Part shown: positions 12,866 to 20,176 of the stretch, piece after piece
Layout of the letters: each line of letters starts with the position of its first letter
Numbering within the stretch: position 1 is the stretch's first letter
From: a virus
Virus record (IMG/VR): IMGVR_UViG_3300035698_008681
Coordinates: 1-20,176 of that record
Reading direction: 5' to 3' (one strand)
Length of the DNA: 20,176 nt
Notes under the pieces: model-generated
The model's database searches: none
What the model was told of the DNA's origin: nothing
The model's input: the letters and a program-made list of their open reading frames with translations, nothing else
Made by a program: the position numbers and the translations under genes

Positions 12866-13763
12866 GTGGTAGACCTTCGGGCCCGAAACCCGAGGGTACC
12901 GAGACGATGGGGTCCATTGAAGGCACCCCGTTAGAGTTAGTTAGGAAGTCTAGTTTTGCCATGGCTTGTACAGGGTGCGCAATCACGCGGTCTGTACCTC
13001 CGCCTTTTCGCCCTGAAACGTCGTCTCGGGTGACGTGCATCCAAGACATGATCATGTAGATAGGGTGGTAGTCATAGTGGACGCTGACCACGGCTTTATC
13101 AGGTACTACGCGGTTTCCATGAGGGAGCCACTTGATCCAGCCTTCCTTGGTCACCTGGAAGTGAATGTCCTTCTCCAGGAAAGCCATTGTCCCGTCCGAG
13201 TTACGATAAACCAGAGCGGCTATGTCTAATATCCGGAAGCGCGCGCTGTCCACTCCGTCGGGGAGTACTTGTCTACGTCCCCTGCGGTTGCCCTTTATTA
13301 GCAACTCGTTCATGGGGATCATGGCGTCGCGCATTTCCAAGCTATCGCGGTAACCTAGTCGGTACTGCGGCTCCAGCGTGACGTTGACGCTGCCCTCTTG
13401 GTACAGACCGAACTTCTCGTAGATGCTGGTCTTCTTATCGAACTGCATCATGAGCGCCTGGATCTGCTGAGGCTGAACGTAGATGTAGCCGTCGCCTCCG
13501 CAGGCGTCACAGTCCAATACGGCTTGCTCTGTCTCTGGATTGAAGCAAGGGCATAACAAAGCTTTCCGCCAAACGACGTACTTGCCGTGTTGGCGAATGA
13601 CGCGAACGAACTCGCCTTCACTCCAGTCCGCCCGAATCTTGCTCTTACCAAGCTCGTCCCCCTTAGAGGTTTGGACTGCGCCTGTGGTGTACGGGATTTC
13701 GACGGACCTGCCTGAATCTAGGCGTGGCGCTGCGGGTGCAATCTTCTTAGAACTCAAGGCCAT
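12858..13763 (-). CDS. Neck/head-closure structural protein with a zinc-binding cysteine cluster
   Basis: This 301-residue product lies in the connector region. Residues about 70-93 hold LCPCFNPETEQAVLDCDACGG, with a C-x-C ... C-x-x-C spacing and a following GDGYIY, a compact zinc-ribbon motif found in some phage neck proteins. The C-terminal half is beta-rich (VVSVHYDYHPIYMIMSW). I chose ATG 13763 rather than a GTG 21 bases upstream, because ATG has GGGAAGAAG just before it. The start lies inside the last codons of the HNH endonuclease gene (overlap of 17 bases), so the ribosome-binding site is embedded in that gene. A specific stopper or adaptor name cannot be given. Confidence 0.7.
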   Translation of the reverse strand: MALSSKKIAPAAPRLDSGRSVEIPYTTGAVQTSKGDELGKSKIRADWSEGEFVRVIRQHGKYVVWRKALLCPCFNPETEQAVLDCDACGGDGYIYVQPQQIQALMMQFDKKTSIYEKFGLYQEGSVNVTLEPQYRLGYRDSLEMRDAMIPMNELLIKGNRRGRRQVLPDGVDSARFRILDIAALVYRNSDGTMAFLEKDIHFQVTKEGWIKWLPHGNRVVPDKAVVSVHYDYHPIYMIMSWMHVTRDDVSGRKGGGTDRVIAHPVQAMAKLDFLTNSNGVPSMDPIVSVPSGFGPEGLPLG

Positions 13764-14286
13764 CTTCTTCCCAAGTAACAGCACGCACTATCTGCGAGAC
13801 TGCAGGTTGCGATATGCCAAACTTAGCAGCGAGCTGCACTTGCGTCGCCCCTTCGAGGTATTCTGCGCGAAGTTGCCGTACTTTCACCCAAGTCATGATG
13901 GAGTGTGGTCGCATTTCGCCTCGGGTGTGTCTTCGTTTAGCAACACAATCTCTTGCGTTGTCAGCTTGTGTACTTAGCTGTAAATGATCTGGGTTTACGC
14001 AGGCGCGCACATCACACTTGTGCATAACCACCATGCCTTTAGGAACAGGGCCTTTGTGAAGCATGTAGCTAGCTACATGTGCTCCGACCTTCGTGGTGAT
14101 AGGCTCGCCTGGCTTGGTCCTTAGCCCTATATTACCATAGCCAGTGCCTGCTGTGCTTCCTGTCCATAACTGGCAGCCGTTCCCATTAGATGCAGCTACT
14201 TTTGGGTAGAATCGTTGTGCTAGTGTTAGTGCTCGCCTGGTCAGGTTGTACTTAGCTCGTGCTGCTGCCGTTCTATCTCTTGCCAT
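13747..14286 (-). CDS. HNH homing-type endonuclease with C-terminal helix-turn-helix
   Basis: The 179-residue protein has the free-standing phage HNH layout. C38-x-LWTG and GYGNI (38-53) are followed by AHVASYMLHKGPVP (69-82) and MHKCDVRACVNPDHLQLST (88-106), giving the HNH catalytic core (H89 region, N98, H101) with cysteines 91 and 96 that may bind zinc. Residues 135-170 (RAEYLEGATQVQLAAKFGIS, then QPAVSQIV) form a helix-turn-helix for DNA recognition. Such enzymes cut a site in related genomes lacking the gene and spread by repair. It separates two connector genes and overlaps the next by 17 bases. No Shine-Dalgarno precedes ATG 14286, so expression is probably low. Confidence 0.9.
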   Translation of the reverse strand: MARDRTAAARAKYNLTRRALTLAQRFYPKVAASNGNGCQLWTGSTAGTGYGNIGLRTKPGEPITTKVGAHVASYMLHKGPVPKGMVVMHKCDVRACVNPDHLQLSTQADNARDCVAKRRHTRGEMRPHSIMTWVKVRQLRAEYLEGATQVQLAAKFGISQPAVSQIVRAVTWEEDGLEF

Positions 14287-14305: not shown

Positions 14306-15412
14306 TTACGCGACAGTAAAACTGATCCCGTGGTAGTAGCGCCTCAGGTTTGGAATCTGCTTCTTCAGCTGCTCCAGGTATTGCTTGATACGCGCGCCGT
14401 AGCCCGCGTTAGTCGCGCTGGACGTGGTTCCGATGGTCTGGCTCAGACCGTCCATGGAAAGGCTTAGGTTGGCGATACCAGCGCCAGCAATCAGGTCTCC
14501 AAACACGTTGAAGGGGCCAAGGCTGGCAGCCATACCGATCAAGTCGATGATGTTGCGCGGAATCTGCCCCTCTGCGAAGCCCGCCACGTACTGAATCTGA
14601 AACAGGTGCGGTAGGTAATCCTGGCCGCCGTAGATCATAGGTAGGAAGTGTCCCCCCACTCCGATAGCGAACTGGCTTAGGGTACCTGTCGTAGGCACAA
14701 TCTGAATCTGAGCGGACTCTGCATTGATGCGGAGCCACTCCTGCGGGTACGTGATAACCGTCTGTCCTGCGGGGTATTGTACTTTGAACTCCTCCACAGA
14801 GATCAAAGGCAAGTTGTCCAGCTTGATGAAGTTGAACGCTTCCCAGTCATTGCGGTAGTAGTCCTGTAGGTCGCAAAAGGTCGTAGGTAGTAGGGGTATG
14901 TCTAGCTCATGCTCCAACCACTGGATTGCTGCCAGGATGTAGTGTTGAAACACAGCATCCGACATGGGCTGGCCTGACTCGTCCGTTAGGTCCAGACCAA
15001 ACAGGTACCTGCTCTTGAGCTGCGCCACGGTTAGCAAGTTCCGGAGCGCTAGGCCTTCGCCGGAAATAACAGCACTTGCGTCGGTCTTCCCACCCGTAAC
15101 TGAGTTTAGGTACCTGGTACGGTAGAAGTAGCTAGGGGAGCCCGTGCCGTCGACTGCGCGATAGTCTGTCTGGCCTTCGTTGAGTACTAGCCTGGTGTCT
15201 GGTGCCGTTATCTCCTGCCAAGTGATCTGAGAGTCGCTGCTGCGCTCTAGTACCAAGCGGTCAAACCCACAGTCGCGCGCCTCCTCGATAGATGCGTCGC
15301 TGATATCGATAGTAATGCAGGTGCCCCGTTTCCCTGCTGAGATAGCAGGGCCCGAGGCATTGACTGCGGGGTCCAACAAGAAGTGTCGGTCGTTTTGGGC
15401 AAAAGAAGGCAT
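14306..15412 (-). CDS. Head-tail adaptor (gp6-like) with N-terminal Fn3-like domain
   Basis: The 368-residue protein has two parts. Residues about 30-118 look like a fibronectin-III/Ig-like domain (FDRLVLERSSDSQITWQEI, then YFYRTRYLNSVTGGKTDAS). Residues about 125-180 (LLTVAQLKSRYLFGLDL, then DAVFQHYILAAIQWLEHELD) match the helical start of gp6-like head-tail connectors that dock under the portal. The remainder includes a beta region with PGG-like loops and a C-terminal segment, LSMDGLSQTIGTTSSATNAG followed by ARIKQYLEQLKKQI, common at the end of such adaptors. The start ATG 15412 has AGGGAAA upstream. The extra N-terminal domain may decorate the neck. Confidence 0.7.
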   Translation of the reverse strand: MPSFAQNDRHFLLDPAVNASGPAISAGKRGTCITIDISDASIEEARDCGFDRLVLERSSDSQITWQEITAPDTRLVLNEGQTDYRAVDGTGSPSYFYRTRYLNSVTGGKTDASAVISGEGLALRNLLTVAQLKSRYLFGLDLTDESGQPMSDAVFQHYILAAIQWLEHELDIPLLPTTFCDLQDYYRNDWEAFNFIKLDNLPLISVEEFKVQYPAGQTVITYPQEWLRINAESAQIQIVPTTGTLSQFAIGVGGHFLPMIYGGQDYLPHLFQIQYVAGFAEGQIPRNIIDLIGMAASLGPFNVFGDLIAGAGIANLSLSMDGLSQTIGTTSSATNAGYGARIKQYLEQLKKQIPNLRRYYHGISFTVA

Positions 15413-15419
15413 GGTTTCC

Positions 15420-15803
15420 CTAGAAAAGCGCTTTCAGCAATGCTACTGCGGCAGCCAAAATGGCGCCACCTGCTCCCACGATTGCCACCTTCACTTGCGC
15501 AGCGCTGGCCTGTCGCTCCTTGATGAGGATGAACTCCTGACGCAGTGCGTCTAGCTCGCGCTGGGAAGCCTTTGTTGAAATCTGCTGAGTAGCGTCTGCA
15601 CGAGATACTAAAGCGAGTTTCTCTAGCTCAGACCCTTGGATCAGCTGCTTAGTCTCAAGCAAAGAAATGTGACGTCGTTGCTCTTCTACTAAGTCGCGCA
15701 ACCGTCCACGCTCCTTTGCCGCAGTCTCGTACAAGAGCGCGGTGGAGGCAGATATGCCAGCAAGCCTTTCATCCAGCCTTGCGATTTGAGCGTCGTCATT
15801 CAT
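15420..15803 (-). CDS. Coiled-coil protein with C-terminal membrane segment (XhlA/holin-like architecture)
   Basis: This 127-residue protein is predicted to be a long coiled coil over residues 5-100 (heptad-like leucines, many E/K/R/Q), followed by one hydrophobic segment at 104-126 (VKVAIVGAGGAILAAAVALL) ending in KALF. That layout, with soluble helix first and a membrane anchor last, is the one seen in XhlA-type lysis accessory proteins and some holins, but also in phage scaffolds and unrelated tail-anchored proteins, and no sequence motif decides. Its ATG overlaps the end of the second response regulator by eight bases, so the two are co-translated. A role in lysis or membrane signalling is inference. 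Confidence 0.7.
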   Translation of the reverse strand: MNDDAQIARLDERLAGISASTALLYETAAKERGRLRDLVEEQRRHISLLETKQLIQGSELEKLALVSRADATQQISTKASQRELDALRQEFILIKERQASAAQVKVAIVGAGGAILAAAVALLKALF

Positions 15804-16722
15804 CTGCTAGATCTGCGAGAGTCAGTGGCGGTAGTGTGTTGGCTTCCCCAAGGACTTTACGCTCTGGTTCCGATAGTTGCGCGGGAGGCTTACTGGGATA
15901 GCTCTGCATTGATAACAAGTACGCCTTAGCATCTGCAGGAGTCTTGATATCTGACGCGGTTTTCCCAGATTCACGGATCCGTTTGAACGCCTGACCGCTG
16001 ATTGAACGGTCTTGGCGCTCCGATTCTGACGCTTGCGGCGGTATCGTCATGCGGTCGTCAGGACTCTCAATATTTAGGATATTGCGAATCTCCTTGAGTG
16101 ACGCCATGACATGCCCCCATCCCAGTAGCTTGTTCACCTCGTAGGACGCCGCTGGGGCAGTAGCTGCTAGGTAGTTCCGGACTTGGTGAATACCGCCCTC
16201 AATGCGGTCCAGGTGTCCGCTGACTGCTACGCCTAGTGTCGCTGTGCTGCTGGAGTCTGAAAACTGGCTTAGAGACTCCCAGGCTAGCTTTCGGTTCGTT
16301 ACGTCCCTGTGATGTCGTTCAATAGCCTGGCGCAGGACGGATTCCAGCCTGTGTGCCTCAGGCGGCTTCTCTACGTAGGCTGCTGCGCCGTACTCTACTG
16401 CCTGCACTGCCGTTTCGATGTCCCCCATTGAGGACAGAATGATGATGGGCATGTCTGGGCTCTCACGCACTACCTGGACCACAGTGTCTAGCCCGTTAGC
16501 AGGCCCATCGAACTGCAGGATCAGGTCAAGCAGCACTGCATCGTACCGCTTGTAGCGAAGCGCGGTTAGCCCATTGCTGAGGTGCGACACCCTAGCAGGT
16601 GCAAACTTGACGGTTTTAGCCCTGTTTAGGGACCGTTCGATTAGACGCCAGTCGTCGTCATCGTCCTCAATGACTAATATTGAGTAGATACGATCTTCGG
16701 GTCTTTCATGTTGAGAGTTCAT
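15796..16722 (-). CDS. Response regulator with CheY-like receiver and unrecognised C-terminal region
   Basis: Residues 13-135 form a receiver: SILVIEDDDDD (acidic pocket D21/D22), phosphoacceptor D66 in VLLDL, ILSS with S97, and the EKPP motif with K119. All conserved positions for phosphorylation are present. Residues about 145-308 match no output domain I know: a helical stretch (170-220, LDRIEGGIHQVRNYLAATAP), a polar linker, and a charged C-terminus with AKAYLLSMQSYPSKPP and a final LTLADLADE. No helix-turn-helix, GGDEF or HD motif is visible. The gene overlaps the preceding regulator by 17 bases and has GGAAGTGGA before ATG 16722. It would receive phosphate from the adjacent kinase, directly or through the first regulator. 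Confidence 0.87.
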   Translation of the reverse strand: MNSQHERPEDRIYSILVIEDDDDDWRLIERSLNRAKTVKFAPARVSHLSNGLTALRYKRYDAVLLDLILQFDGPANGLDTVVQVVRESPDMPIIILSSMGDIETAVQAVEYGAAAYVEKPPEAHRLESVLRQAIERHHRDVTNRKLAWESLSQFSDSSSTATLGVAVSGHLDRIEGGIHQVRNYLAATAPAASYEVNKLLGWGHVMASLKEIRNILNIESPDDRMTIPPQASESERQDRSISGQAFKRIRESGKTASDIKTPADAKAYLLSMQSYPSKPPAQLSEPERKVLGEANTLPPLTLADLADE

Positions 16723-17116
16723 TCCACTTCCACCAGGCTACTAAGTTGTGGGCAAGTTCCCTGAAATCCCTAGGAGCTACTGGTTTTGCCAGGTAACCCG
16801 CTACTTGCAGATCCCACCCTCTGAAAATGTCGTCTTTTGACCTAGAAGAGGACAGCGCCACGATAGGTACGTGTCTGATGGCTGGGTCGGCCTTGGCTGC
16901 CTCCAGCACGTCGTGGCCGCTAATACCAGGCAGGTTTAGGTCAAGCAGTACTATGACTGGCTTCTGATTTGAGACGCTCCTCAGGTATGCAAGCGCCTCC
17001 TCACCTGTGACTACACGGGTAAGTTCCACGTCCGTCTGCTTACGAAAAGCGCGATTGGTGAGCGATGCGTCATCATCGTCATCTTCAACCAGGAGCACTC
17101 GTAAGTTGGGTCGCAT
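16706..17116 (-). CDS. Single-domain response regulator (CheY/Rcp1-like)
   Basis: The protein is a bare receiver of 136 residues. VLLVEDDDDDASLTNRAF (7-24) supplies the acidic pocket, D59 in LLDLNLPG is the phosphoacceptor, S89 or S90 in ALSSS is the switch hydroxyl, and K111 in LAKP completes the site. LLVEDDDDD and LLDLNLPG are typical of the Rcp1-type regulators that pair with phytochrome-like kinases. I chose ATG 17116 rather than a start 32 codons upstream, because the receiver fold begins there. The start lies inside the 3' end of the kinase gene (32-base overlap). With no output domain it must act by protein contact or as a phosphate relay or sink. Confidence 0.9.
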   Translation of the reverse strand: MRPNLRVLLVEDDDDDASLTNRAFRKQTDVELTRVVTGEEALAYLRSVSNQKPVIVLLDLNLPGISGHDVLEAAKADPAIRHVPIVALSSSRSKDDIFRGWDLQVAGYLAKPVAPRDFRELAHNLVAWWKWNELST

Positions 17117-18269
17117 TTTCGGAGGGGGCTGATTTTGGTAAATCGAACTGAACAATGGTCCCGCCTCCGGGCGCGTGGAATGCGAGAATCTTACCGCCGT
17201 GTGCCTCCACAATACGCTGACATACGGCTAAGCCCAACCCCATGCCAGGCACTTTCAGCGATTGGTCCCCAACTCGCCTAAACAGGTCGAATGCATTCTC
17301 GTGCATACCTTCAGGGATGCCCCTACCGTTGTCTTGCACTTGTACAACTGTACGGTAGGTGCCCTCTGTCACGCGTAAGGTCAGCAGAGGGCGCCTACTA
17401 GGGTGCGCAAACTTGATACTGTTCGCTATCAAGTTGCCTAGCAGCTGGTAGACCATGATAGGAGATCCCCAAGTCGCAGCATCAAGTGGGTCCTCTATCC
17501 GGAAGGTGGCAGCTTGTATCTGCTCGTCTGTCAGGTTGTCCTGGATAGCGTTGCTCCAGGCATGTTTCAGATCGAGCTTTTCTAGCGTACCCACTTCCCC
17601 CGAACGTGCGAACGTTAGGATCCCGTCTAACAGACCTTCAATACGTTCGCTGGCGGATCTGAGTGACTTTAGGTAACCCAGCATCTCTGGTGTGCATTTC
17701 AGACCTAGGTCTTCTGCGTCTTCAAGAAAGGCCTGGGCAAAACCTACCATGTGCCTTGTTGGCTTTCGTAGGTCGTGACTTAGTATGTAGGTCGTGCGTT
17801 CCAGCTCGCGATTACGCTGTACCAGACTAGACTCCGCCTGTCCCAGCGCGTACTGCGTCTCCATGAGACCAGTCACGTCTGTGTGTGCCCCTAGCATACG
17901 CGTAGGGACACCTTCACCATTACGTATGATGAGCCCACGGCAGCGGACCCAAACCCAATGCCCTTGCTTGTGCTTGTATCGCGCAACTTGATCGTAGTTG
18001 AAGTCTGGGTCCTCCTTGTGCTTCTCGAAGCTCTGAACAGCCAGGGGCAGATCCTCTGGGTGAATATTAGCCTGCCACCAATCCGCAGTATTCTCTAGCT
18101 CGCCGTACTCATAGCCAAACGTTGTGCAGAACTTAGGGCTCATCCACCCTGAGTTGCCTTCTTCCAGGTCCCAGTACCAGAGGCCATCTAGTGATCCTTG
18201 ATCAATCCAATCAAAGATAGCGCTATCTGTGTGTACCAGGTTTAGTAACTCCGCATGTAGGTAGTGCAT
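17085..18269 (-). CDS. Soluble PAS-domain sensor histidine kinase
   Basis: This 394-residue kinase has one PAS domain, a dimerisation domain and an ATPase domain, with no membrane segment. Residues 25-133 match a PAS_3 fold with PAC motif (DGLWYWDLEEG, WQANIHPEDLP, HKQGHWVWVRCRGLI, MLGAHTDVTG). A coiled helix (140-160) leads to the H-box SHDLRKPTRH, with the phosphoacceptor H165. The catalytic core has the N-box GNLIANSIKFA (N279, N283), the G1 box QDNGRGIPE (D313), the F-box FDLFRR and the G2 box PGMGLGLAVC. All residues needed for autophosphorylation are intact, so it is probably active. The PAS domain could bind a small ligand, haem or flavin; I cannot tell which. Its gene follows a zinc-ribbon gene by two bases. 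Confidence 0.95.
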   Translation of the reverse strand: MHYLHAELLNLVHTDSAIFDWIDQGSLDGLWYWDLEEGNSGWMSPKFCTTFGYEYGELENTADWWQANIHPEDLPLAVQSFEKHKEDPDFNYDQVARYKHKQGHWVWVRCRGLIIRNGEGVPTRMLGAHTDVTGLMETQYALGQAESSLVQRNRELERTTYILSHDLRKPTRHMVGFAQAFLEDAEDLGLKCTPEMLGYLKSLRSASERIEGLLDGILTFARSGEVGTLEKLDLKHAWSNAIQDNLTDEQIQAATFRIEDPLDAATWGSPIMVYQLLGNLIANSIKFAHPSRRPLLTLRVTEGTYRTVVQVQDNGRGIPEGMHENAFDLFRRVGDQSLKVPGMGLGLAVCQRIVEAHGGKILAFHAPGGGTIVQFDLPKSAPSENATQLTSAPG

Positions 18270-18271
18270 CG

Positions 18272-18457
18272 CTATTCTACGCTTATGTCAGGCTTAGTAT
18301 CTGCCCGCTCAGCAGTACACTTAGTACAGTAGATAAACTCGCCTTCGCGGCTCCAACCCTCGCGAAGGCGCACCGTCTCAAAGGGCCTTGGATTGTGACC
18401 CTGTGCGGTTAGGCCGCAGCTATCACAAGAAGGATCAAACAAATAGCGCACTGTCAC
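18272..18457 (-). CDS. Small zinc-ribbon-like protein B
   Basis: The 61-residue product has two CxxC knuckles: C11-DS-C14 near the start and C44-TK-C47 near the end, with REGWSREGEF between them, a typical tiny zinc ribbon. It starts with GTG at 18457 inside a GTGA overlap with the upstream stop codon, which supports coupled translation. It probably binds one zinc ion and could contact nucleic acid or protein. Function is unknown. It resembles its upstream neighbour in layout, suggesting an old duplication. Confidence 0.72.
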   Translation of the reverse strand: MTVRYLFDPSCDSCGLTAQGHNPRPFETVRLREGWSREGEFIYCTKCTAERADTKPDISVE

Positions 18458-18651
18458 AGTACTGGCTTAGGAAGATCTTTGACAGGCATGTCTTGGCAGT
18501 CTTGGCAGGGCACTGCACACAGGTCTTTACCCTCGAAAACCCAGGTGTCAGGTAGCGTATCAGTAGGCGCCGCACCGGTAAAATCAGTTTGCATTACGCC
18601 TGGTTCCTCTGCGCCGCAGCAGTCGCAAAGTACGTTTATCCTTAGTTGCAT
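18454..18651 (-). CDS. Small zinc-ribbon-like protein A
   Basis: The 65-residue product has an N-terminal cluster C9-D-CC12 and a C-terminal C45-AVP-C49-QD-C52, with DTWVFEGKDL between, so a zinc-binding knuckle pair is likely. The start ATG 18651 has a weak AAGAG-type Shine-Dalgarno. It overlaps the next small zinc-ribbon gene by four bases. Function is unknown. Confidence 0.72.
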   Translation of the reverse strand: MQLRINVLCDCCGAEEPGVMQTDFTGAAPTDTLPDTWVFEGKDLCAVPCQDCQDMPVKDLPKPVL

Positions 18652-18977: not shown

Positions 18978-20176
18978 CTACGCTGCCGTGCCTGGGCAAA
19001 CTACGTCGATGGCTTGCTGAATGGTAGCCGCGACGCTGTTGCCCAGAAGTTCGTAGCCAATGTCGTTGAGGTGCACTTGGTCGTCGTATAGTGATGCGTT
19101 CCAGGCGACGGTGTTGTACGCGTCGTACACTAGAATGTCCCTGGCCTCCGCGAGGGCTATGATCTTAGGAACGTAGTCCGCGAGATTGAGCCTAGCCTGA
19201 TCGTATACCACGCTTGCGGTAGGGCTAATAGGAGGCGGGGTGACCACTACAATCTCAACGGCCTCTTCCTCGGCCAGAATCAGAGTAAGTAGCGCATCGA
19301 ACGCAGCAGGCGTCGCGGTACCATCGTAGGTAGCACCTAGGTTATCCTCGCAGTCGTTGGTACCGATCATGAGTACGAGCACATCGGGTCTGTATGGCGT
19401 GCCTACCCCCAATCGGCTAGGCAGCCCTGCTGTCACGTCTGCGATATCAGCGTCACTAAGTCCGTAGTGCTGTATGGGTGGGGTTCCTTCGCTACCTACG
19501 AAATGGTGGATACCGTCATTTGCGTTGAGGTACTGCTGTACCGCTAACAGGTATGAAGTGCTGTCATCAGAGCTACCAATGCCCTCCGTGAGGCTGTCGC
19601 CCACACCCATGATACGCGCGTGCCGTGGGAACGTGCCTGGATTCTCGTTTTCGAGGTTACCCATGGTTGCGCGCAACTCTGCCCTCGACATAGCGCGGTC
19701 CATGGTGAGCAGTGCTGCAATGTCGATTTTCGCGAAGAGTGCTCCGCCGTCGAACTGCGCGAACATACTCATCGCGTTTTCATTTCGAAGCTCAGTACCC
19801 GCGTAAGTCGTCTCGTCTAGCAGTTCCCTGCCTCTGTAGAGAGTTACGGCGCCTGCGGGGTCGTCACAGTGGAAGATGAGCGCTTGCGGGCCCTTTTCGT
19901 AACCCTGTACTGCGAGGTTACGGTGTGCGTTCTCGAACAAGCCGTAGTTACCAACAATGCCGTTAGGTCGAATCTGCAGTGCGAAACGAGCAGCGTTCCG
20001 GCCTTCGAAAAAGAACTTGTTGAATCCTGCGAGGGGGATGTCATCGGTCATTTCGCAAATCACAACAAACGTGTGGCTCGTAGCCGCTCCGTGACTGAGG
20101 TTTGCTACGACCAGTGCGTCATTCACTCCATCGGCGGAGTACGCAGGCATGCCGTAAGGGCCATTTGCTATATAGA
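18978..20176 (-). CDS. Fibre-type SGNH (GDSL) hydrolase with ConA/lectin-like N-terminal part (5' end probably off the right edge)
   Basis: Numbering from the ATG at 20150 (390 residues), residues 1-165 look like a concanavalin-A/LamG jelly roll (SADGVNDALVV, FALQIRPNG, KIDIAALLTMDRAMS). Residues 178-390 form an SGNH hydrolase: block I GVGDSLTEG with nucleophile S186, block III GTND with N265, and block V D357-QV-H360; G230 may be the block II glycine. Such domains deacetylate or de-esterify surface glycans, so the protein probably recognises and trims host polysaccharide. The frame stays open upstream to base 20176, reading YIANGPYG before the ATG. ANG-x-PA ... DG-x-x-D-x-L is a continuous ConA-like motif, and no Shine-Dalgarno precedes ATG 20150, so the gene probably starts beyond the window. 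Confidence 0.85.
   Translation of the reverse strand, partial: YIANGPYGMPAYSADGVNDALVVANLSHGAATSHTFVVICEMTDDIPLAGFNKFFFEGRNAARFALQIRPNGIVGNYGLFENAHRNLAVQGYEKGPQALIFHCDDPAGAVTLYRGRELLDETTYAGTELRNENAMSMFAQFDGGALFAKIDIAALLTMDRAMSRAELRATMGNLENENPGTFPRHARIMGVGDSLTEGIGSSDDSTSYLLAVQQYLNANDGIHHFVGSEGTPPIQHYGLSDADIADVTAGLPSRLGVGTPYRPDVLVLMIGTNDCEDNLGATYDGTATPAAFDALLTLILAEEEAVEIVVVTPPPISPTASVVYDQARLNLADYVPKIIALAEARDILVYDAYNTVAWNASLYDDQVHLNDIGYELLGNSVAATIQQAIDVVCPGTAA

Follow-up and report, generated by a model that had tools for sequence, protein, structure and literature searches.

Gene Content and Genomic Context of the Cassette

The window analyzed here, the linear fragment of 20,176 bases that makes up the whole of IMG/VR record IMGVR_UViG_3300035698_008681, encodes a two-component signaling cassette of four genes on the minus strand. 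The cassette comprises a PAS-HisKA-HATPase_c histidine kinase (HK; 17085–18269, 394 aa); a stand-alone Rcp1-like receiver, response regulator 1 (RR1; 16706–17116, 136 aa from its ATG); a second regulator, RR2 (15796–16722, 308 aa), in which a receiver is followed by a C-terminal helical domain, RR2-C; and a 127-aa protein that is a putative membrane effector or anchor (15420–15803). The kinase frame overlaps RR1 by exactly 32 bases, RR1 overlaps RR2 by exactly 17 bases, and the fourth gene overlaps RR2 by 8 bases. An initial annotation of this DNA had described an intact kinase and two receivers with their catalytic residues and the first two overlaps, all of which we confirmed; it had the triplet right but overlooked the fourth gene, as well as the receivers fused to membrane helices and the frequency with which the arrangement recurs, both described below. 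Its use of the overlapping frames as an argument for co-selection and against recent capture was not supported, since frames also overlap in bacterial operons of this kind (8 bases in Persicobacter, 11 in Roseibium), and overlap is therefore not in itself evidence of phage adaptation.

The genes around the cassette are SPO1-like virion genes on the same strand. The 3' border is a head-tail adaptor of the SPO1 gp6.3 family/phrog_772 (14306–15412, minus strand; E 1.3e-61) with up to 38% identity to Spounavirinae adaptors, and the flank also contains a tail sheath (phrog_279, E 1.3e-47); the flanks are thus of phage and not bacterial origin, in line with the placement in a virion gene cluster given by the initial annotation. 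Adaptor and sheath homology, together with the syntenic order in SPO1, LysYB2, Dolphis, and PHB04, identify the source as an SPO1-like (Herelleviridae-related) myovirus. The distance from the major capsid gene to the adaptor downstream of it is 0.5–1.5 kb in SPO1, Lysinibacillus LysYB2, Pseudomonas Dolphis, and Bordetella PHB04; the window's own capsid gene falls beyond the fragment edge, and the cassette occupies the interval that separates these two genes.

An alignment-query scan of IMG/VR returned 80 relatives, and single-protein scans of IMG/VR returned none. Most tblastn matches in "phages" were unannotated records of the "Listeria phage LM" type that resemble host contamination, and these were excluded. 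The best-scoring relative, L011 (adaptor identity 63%), is the sole close relative with the triplet, in identical order and place. Overall identities between the two cassettes are only 41% for the kinase (7064–8200 in L011), 38% for RR1, 32% for RR2, and 29% for the fourth gene. No kinase was found at the capsid-adaptor locus in the other close relatives, so the cassette is accessory, yet no assembly accident. The gap in close relatives is variable (1.2–6.3 kb), holds fibers, patatin-like phospholipases, and other genes, and looks like an accessory-gene hotspot. Patatin-like genes occur there in L015 (6842–7816, Pfam E 6e-32) and L030 (6955–7842, Pfam E 6e-24). In two more distant relatives, a receiver stands by itself upstream of the adaptor; that of L055 lies within the same gap, and that of L056 on a locus that does not include the capsid gene.

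The Kinase and Its PAS Sensor

Pfam searches disclosed PAS_3 (E 6.7e-21), HisKA (E 4.2e-6), and HATPase_c (E 7.7e-24) domains in the kinase, which also matches PHROG family 857 (E 2.2e-32). The phospho-accepting H165 (about 17775–17777) lies in SHDLRKP, and the N-box (NLIANSIK), G1 (DNGRGI), and G2 (GMGLGL) motifs are intact. With an H-box histidine and N, G1, and G2 boxes in the kinase, and an acidic pair, phospho-Asp, and Lys in each receiver, the sequences are those of a HisKA-type two-component system. No transmembrane segment was seen in the kinase, which is therefore probably a cytosolic sensor.

Catalytic residues are kept in every receiver compared and in 18 of 18 phage kinases (the G2 box of one was missed by the search pattern), the opposite of the decay that the initial annotation had named as a reason to abandon its proposal. 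Together with the preservation of order and place in L011 at 29–41% protein identity, this suggests that the phage signaling system is under selection.

The PAS sensor domain (17850–18269, minus strand) is 61% identical to that of the L011 kinase, while the kinase cores share only about 28%, the reverse of expectation. This contrast could reflect either strong constraint on the sensed cue or an exchange of kinase cores. The same PAS subfamily occurs in a kinase on a 618 kb viral contig and in a GGDEF protein of an Actinomycetes metagenome-assembled genome (MAG), and is scarce in bacteria, at 2/198 Bacteroidota, 1/299 Pseudomonadota, and 1/198 genomes in the phylum of the Actinomycetes MAG (E below 1e-42). 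In the MAG protein (L092, 5968–6939), a PAS domain 51% identical to the window's is joined to GGDEF, an indication that this sensor is used with other outputs. Besides its kinase of the PAS subfamily, the viral contig (L097; IMGVR_UViG_3300022719_000283, 618,736 bp) encodes a receiver-membrane fusion and an Rcp1-like receiver, with a TnpB-like open reading frame (ORF) nearby. In a kinase tree built from a sample picked by similarity, phage kinases group with a few bacterial ones and the window kinase forms a long branch.

Like the cassette, bacterial operons on the Persicobacter plasmid pPP7 and a Roseibium plasmid combine a PAS_3-HisKA-HATPase kinase with a small receiver whose frame overlaps it downstream, and in Roseibium further lone receivers come next. 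In contrast to the cassette, neither RR2-C nor a membrane partner was seen in these operons, and their kinases are only 30–36% identical to the window's.

The Receivers and the RR2-C Domain

RR1 is a Response_reg protein with catalytic residues D12, D13, the phospho-acceptor D59, and K111. It aligns over nearly its whole length with the Rcp1/RcpA phytochrome response regulators (PDB: 6xvu, 1k68, 1i3c; E about 1e-20 to 1e-16), the best match being 6xvu (E 4.9e-20). Unlike the Rcp1 systems, the window kinase contains only PAS_3, PAS_9, HisKA, and HATPase_c and no phytochrome photosensory (GAF-PHY) module. PADLOC gave no defense match for the kinase or RR2 and weak matches for RR1 only.

RR2 also carries a Response_reg domain (D20, D21, D66, K119) and matches PHROG family 731 (E 4.4e-18). 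Its C-terminal region, RR2-C (15799–16302, minus strand), has predicted helices at residues 123–156, 160–188, 190–202, and 205–216, with a low-confidence tail beyond residue 216. An AlphaFold2 (AF2) model from two sequences was poor (predicted local distance difference test, pLDDT, 41), and a model from 16 sequences was used, in which the receiver is confident and RR2-C is helical and moderately confident (pLDDT about 65–84 for most helices and about 50 for the tail).

RR2-C is common to the window RR2 and six other phage proteins. In leave-one-out tests, a hidden Markov model (HMM) built without a given member recovered that member in all seven cases (E 1.5e-33 to 1.5e-14), and on this sequence basis RR2-C is a true homologous family. 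The RR2-C HMM matched none of the bacterial control receivers and none of 596 bacterial genomes (349 Pseudomonadota and 247 Bacteroidota); the positive control of that search consisted of phage records that are the profile's own members, so that the leave-one-out test is the better control.

As for output domains, no DNA-binding domain was found in RR2, with no Pfam HTH in it or in RR1; in the structure searches the receiver dominated (model range 10–147), and only receivers were returned. LvrB of Leptospira (PDB: 8vc9) has a receiver followed by long helices, and phmmer aligns it with RR2 residues 14–250 (E 3.3e-7), mostly over the receiver; unlike that hybrid, RR2 has only Response_reg and no DHp or ATPase domains. 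We rejected a role for RR2-C as an Hpt or DHp phosphotransfer domain because comparison of the window with L011 showed no conserved histidine in it.

Membrane-Linked Receivers in Other Phages

The 127-aa protein has a helical, coiled-coil N-terminal part and, by hydropathy, one C-terminal hydrophobic helix (residues 104–122, about 15438–15494). General scans gave no Pfam or PHROG family match, and further searches gave only weak, uninformative ones. Its counterpart in L103 weakly matches phrog_1193 (hemolysin, E 0.009) and phrog_785 (holin, E 0.05).

A broad scan for phage kinases and a separate scan for RR2 relatives revealed that this arrangement recurs. The viral kinase scan yielded 37 distinct loci with a kinase of this type among 41 matches; such systems are thus uncommon in phages, as the initial annotation had held, but not unique. 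The split order HK-RR1-RR2-membrane protein is found in the window, L011, L103, L144, L145, L146, and Microcoleus phage My-WqHQDG, where the four-gene set lies outside the virion genes; L136 departs from this order only in that a stretch containing short ORFs separates RR1 from RR2. A single-helix membrane protein lies directly downstream of RR2 in all seven phages with RR2-C and also in the Microcoleus phage. In a fused form, found at 12 loci, a membrane helix follows the receiver domain within one protein (L104, on the 618 kb contig, L106, L109, L110, L112, L117, L118, L120, L124, L129, L131, and L155). A receiver and a membrane protein with no adjoining kinase occur at L149, L151, and L156–L160, that of L158 directly after tail genes.

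Of the 47 phage loci that have a non-hybrid receiver, 28 show a fused or directly downstream single-helix protein; the share predicted from the remaining genes at these loci is about 21% (p 1.5e-8), although this and the other p-values for membrane linkage overstate the evidence because the loci share ancestry. Membrane linkage was also enriched when only kinase-selected loci were counted (14/31, p 0.003) and after receivers were collapsed at 50% identity (about 18/32, p 1.7e-5). Counted per gene, 28 of 79 phage receivers were membrane-linked compared with 3 of 63 bacterial ones (Fisher p 8.5e-6). Beyond the cassette itself, the main result is that a receiver-membrane module recurs among phages, accompanied in some by a dedicated kinase and in others not. 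Since fusion to or pairing with a membrane helix is recurrent, the output is expected at the membrane, and a membrane output of some kind for the cassette appears likely.

A rival proposal is that the receivers rewire the host. RR1 and RR2 would then serve as phosphate sinks or decoy receivers for the two-component, motility, or chemotaxis circuits of the cell, and the membrane tether would do no more than bring RR2 close to the host's own membrane kinases or chemoreceptor arrays. RR1, a lone Rcp1/CheY-type receiver without an output domain, would suit such a role; phage receivers have already been filed as signaling auxiliary genes (PMC7289586), and the related PAS on the GGDEF protein of one bacterial MAG points to use in second-messenger control. 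A dedicated kinase would be superfluous for a sink, however, yet the kinase is intact in 18/18 cassettes, and several receiver-membrane pairs without a kinase lie among tail or lysis genes. The initial annotation had likewise suggested that phosphate might be drawn from host pathways, which is possible but leaves the membrane partner unexplained. Overall, we consider host rewiring unlikely.

A different pairing was noted on two phage contigs of 133 and 153 kb (L138, 5149–6027, and L139, 5093–6025), where a receiver followed by a GGDEF-like domain stands beside a kinase and a small receiver. This protein is possibly a phage diguanylate cyclase response regulator.

Association with Lysis Genes and Proposed Mechanism

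Holins, antiholins and, in T4, a periplasmic signal are known to determine when phages lyse the cell. Two cultured, distantly related phages have a lone receiver at the head of lysis genes. In Alteromonas myovirus V22 (L231, MN877442, 5750–7039), receiver gp30 is followed by an Rz-like spanin (phrog_4297, E 7e-6) and then a two-helix holin-like gene. In Alteromonas schitovirus A5 (L232, OP481051, 4001–5745), CheY-like gp11 is followed by spanin-like, holin-like, and annotated endolysin genes. As in the cassette, these receivers adjoin membrane genes in a late cluster. They have been published as auxiliary signaling genes of a host-recognition module, with neighbors of unknown function (PMC7289586, PMC10579305). 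A works-like analogue of the 127-aa protein, with no homology implied, is pinholin gp63 of phage N4, which has one membrane helix and a long cytoplasmic helix, with the cytoplasmic region proposed to be regulatory (PMC12642591); the "Receiver domain" of that paper is its own term and does not denote a CheY-type receiver.

Because of the synteny in V22 and A5, we favor the suggestion of the initial annotation that the system tunes late events. We propose a four-gene, phage-carried, PAS-gated phosphorelay with a membrane output, lysis timing being its likeliest role; this is a tentative reading of the sequences, held at slightly less than even confidence. The PAS kinase, probably cytosolic, would sense an intracellular cue in late infection and, given its intact catalytic residues, could pass phosphate to RR1, RR2, or both. 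RR2, through RR2-C, may engage the coiled-coil, C-tail-anchored 127-aa protein, as suggested by their adjacency in relatives and by the fused receiver-membrane proteins elsewhere, and the resulting unit would act at the inner membrane. There it could serve as a phosphorylation-controlled counterpart of holin/antiholin timing. Holding back or triggering lysis would be the likeliest job of the unit, though its probability is put at somewhat below even.

The membrane-linkage data equally fit an output other than lysis, such as control of superinfection exclusion, envelope stress, or membrane potential during infection. The variable gap that houses the cassette, with its patatin-like phospholipases and fibers in relatives, has the look of an envelope-related accessory site, but the lysis-gene synteny in V22 and A5 and the late virion position weigh against such an output, and we regard it as rather improbable.

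Several observations weigh against the proposed lysis-timing phosphorelay. The V22 and A5 receivers have neither RR2-C nor a kinase and, being mutually related, may represent one case and not two. No endolysin or other lysis gene was recognized in the 20 kb window, and the 127-aa protein matches no curated holin, XhlA-like, or spanin family. Membrane helices were called by hydropathy only, and clustering at 35–40% identity (single-linkage, few clusters) weakens the enrichment to p 0.20 and 0.001. Relatives free of the two-component system also have a small membrane or coiled-coil gene immediately ahead of the adaptor; in most of them the helix is N-terminal, the opposite topology. Part of the receiver-membrane gene adjacency in this clade may therefore be phage backbone.

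A further rival would make the cassette a passenger, an ordinary bacterial PAS kinase operon captured by chance and with no phage function, its small membrane gene belonging to the backbone. In favor of this, overlapping HK-RR operons exist in Persicobacter and Roseibium, most close relatives lack the triplet, and the relatives without the two-component system have the small gene before the adaptor. Against it, L011 retains the triplet at the same place at 32–41% identity with catalytic residues intact; RR2-C was not found in the 596 bacterial genomes searched, and an unrelated phage has the four-gene order outside its virion genes. For these reasons, chance capture seems very unlikely. A backbone gene may contribute to 15420–15803, but we did not accept it as the whole account because the same order recurs at the non-virion Microcoleus phage locus.

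If the lysis-timing phosphorelay is correct, a phage could time a late membrane event according to the state of the cell, by means of its own kinase that phosphorylates a receiver linked to the membrane. Functions would then be available for PHROG families 857 (kinase) and 731 (receiver), which are annotated as of unknown function with no cassette or membrane output described, and for receivers filed as auxiliary genes. More broadly, and with greater reserve, many tailed phages, up to hundreds of kb in size, might use CheY-type receivers that are anchored in the membrane or partnered with a membrane protein, in some cases together with a PAS kinase of their own, as a previously unrecognized class of phosphorylation-controlled lysis-timing switch that reads the internal state of the host. 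Within the open PMC subset, no published description of such a cassette or of the receiver-membrane module was found. The receiver-lysis idea is testable now because both Alteromonas phages, V22 and A5, can be cultured.

Neighboring Genes

The upstream border of the cassette is a GDSL/SGNH hydrolase with an extra N-terminal half, a possible head or tail fiber (18978–20150, minus strand), with weak matches to tail-fiber and head-decoration PHROGs. Just upstream of the kinase are two tiny overlapping proteins with CxxC cysteine pairs (18272–18457 and 18454–18651) and no Pfam match. On the other side of the cassette, between the adaptor and the next virion gene, lies an HNH endonuclease with a C-terminal HTH/sigma70_r4-like match (13747–14286), which is absent from that place in L011. 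The adaptor of L033 (10022–11527) and its relatives L031 and L032 is ~130–140 aa longer than those of the window and other relatives, which suggests an inserted domain.

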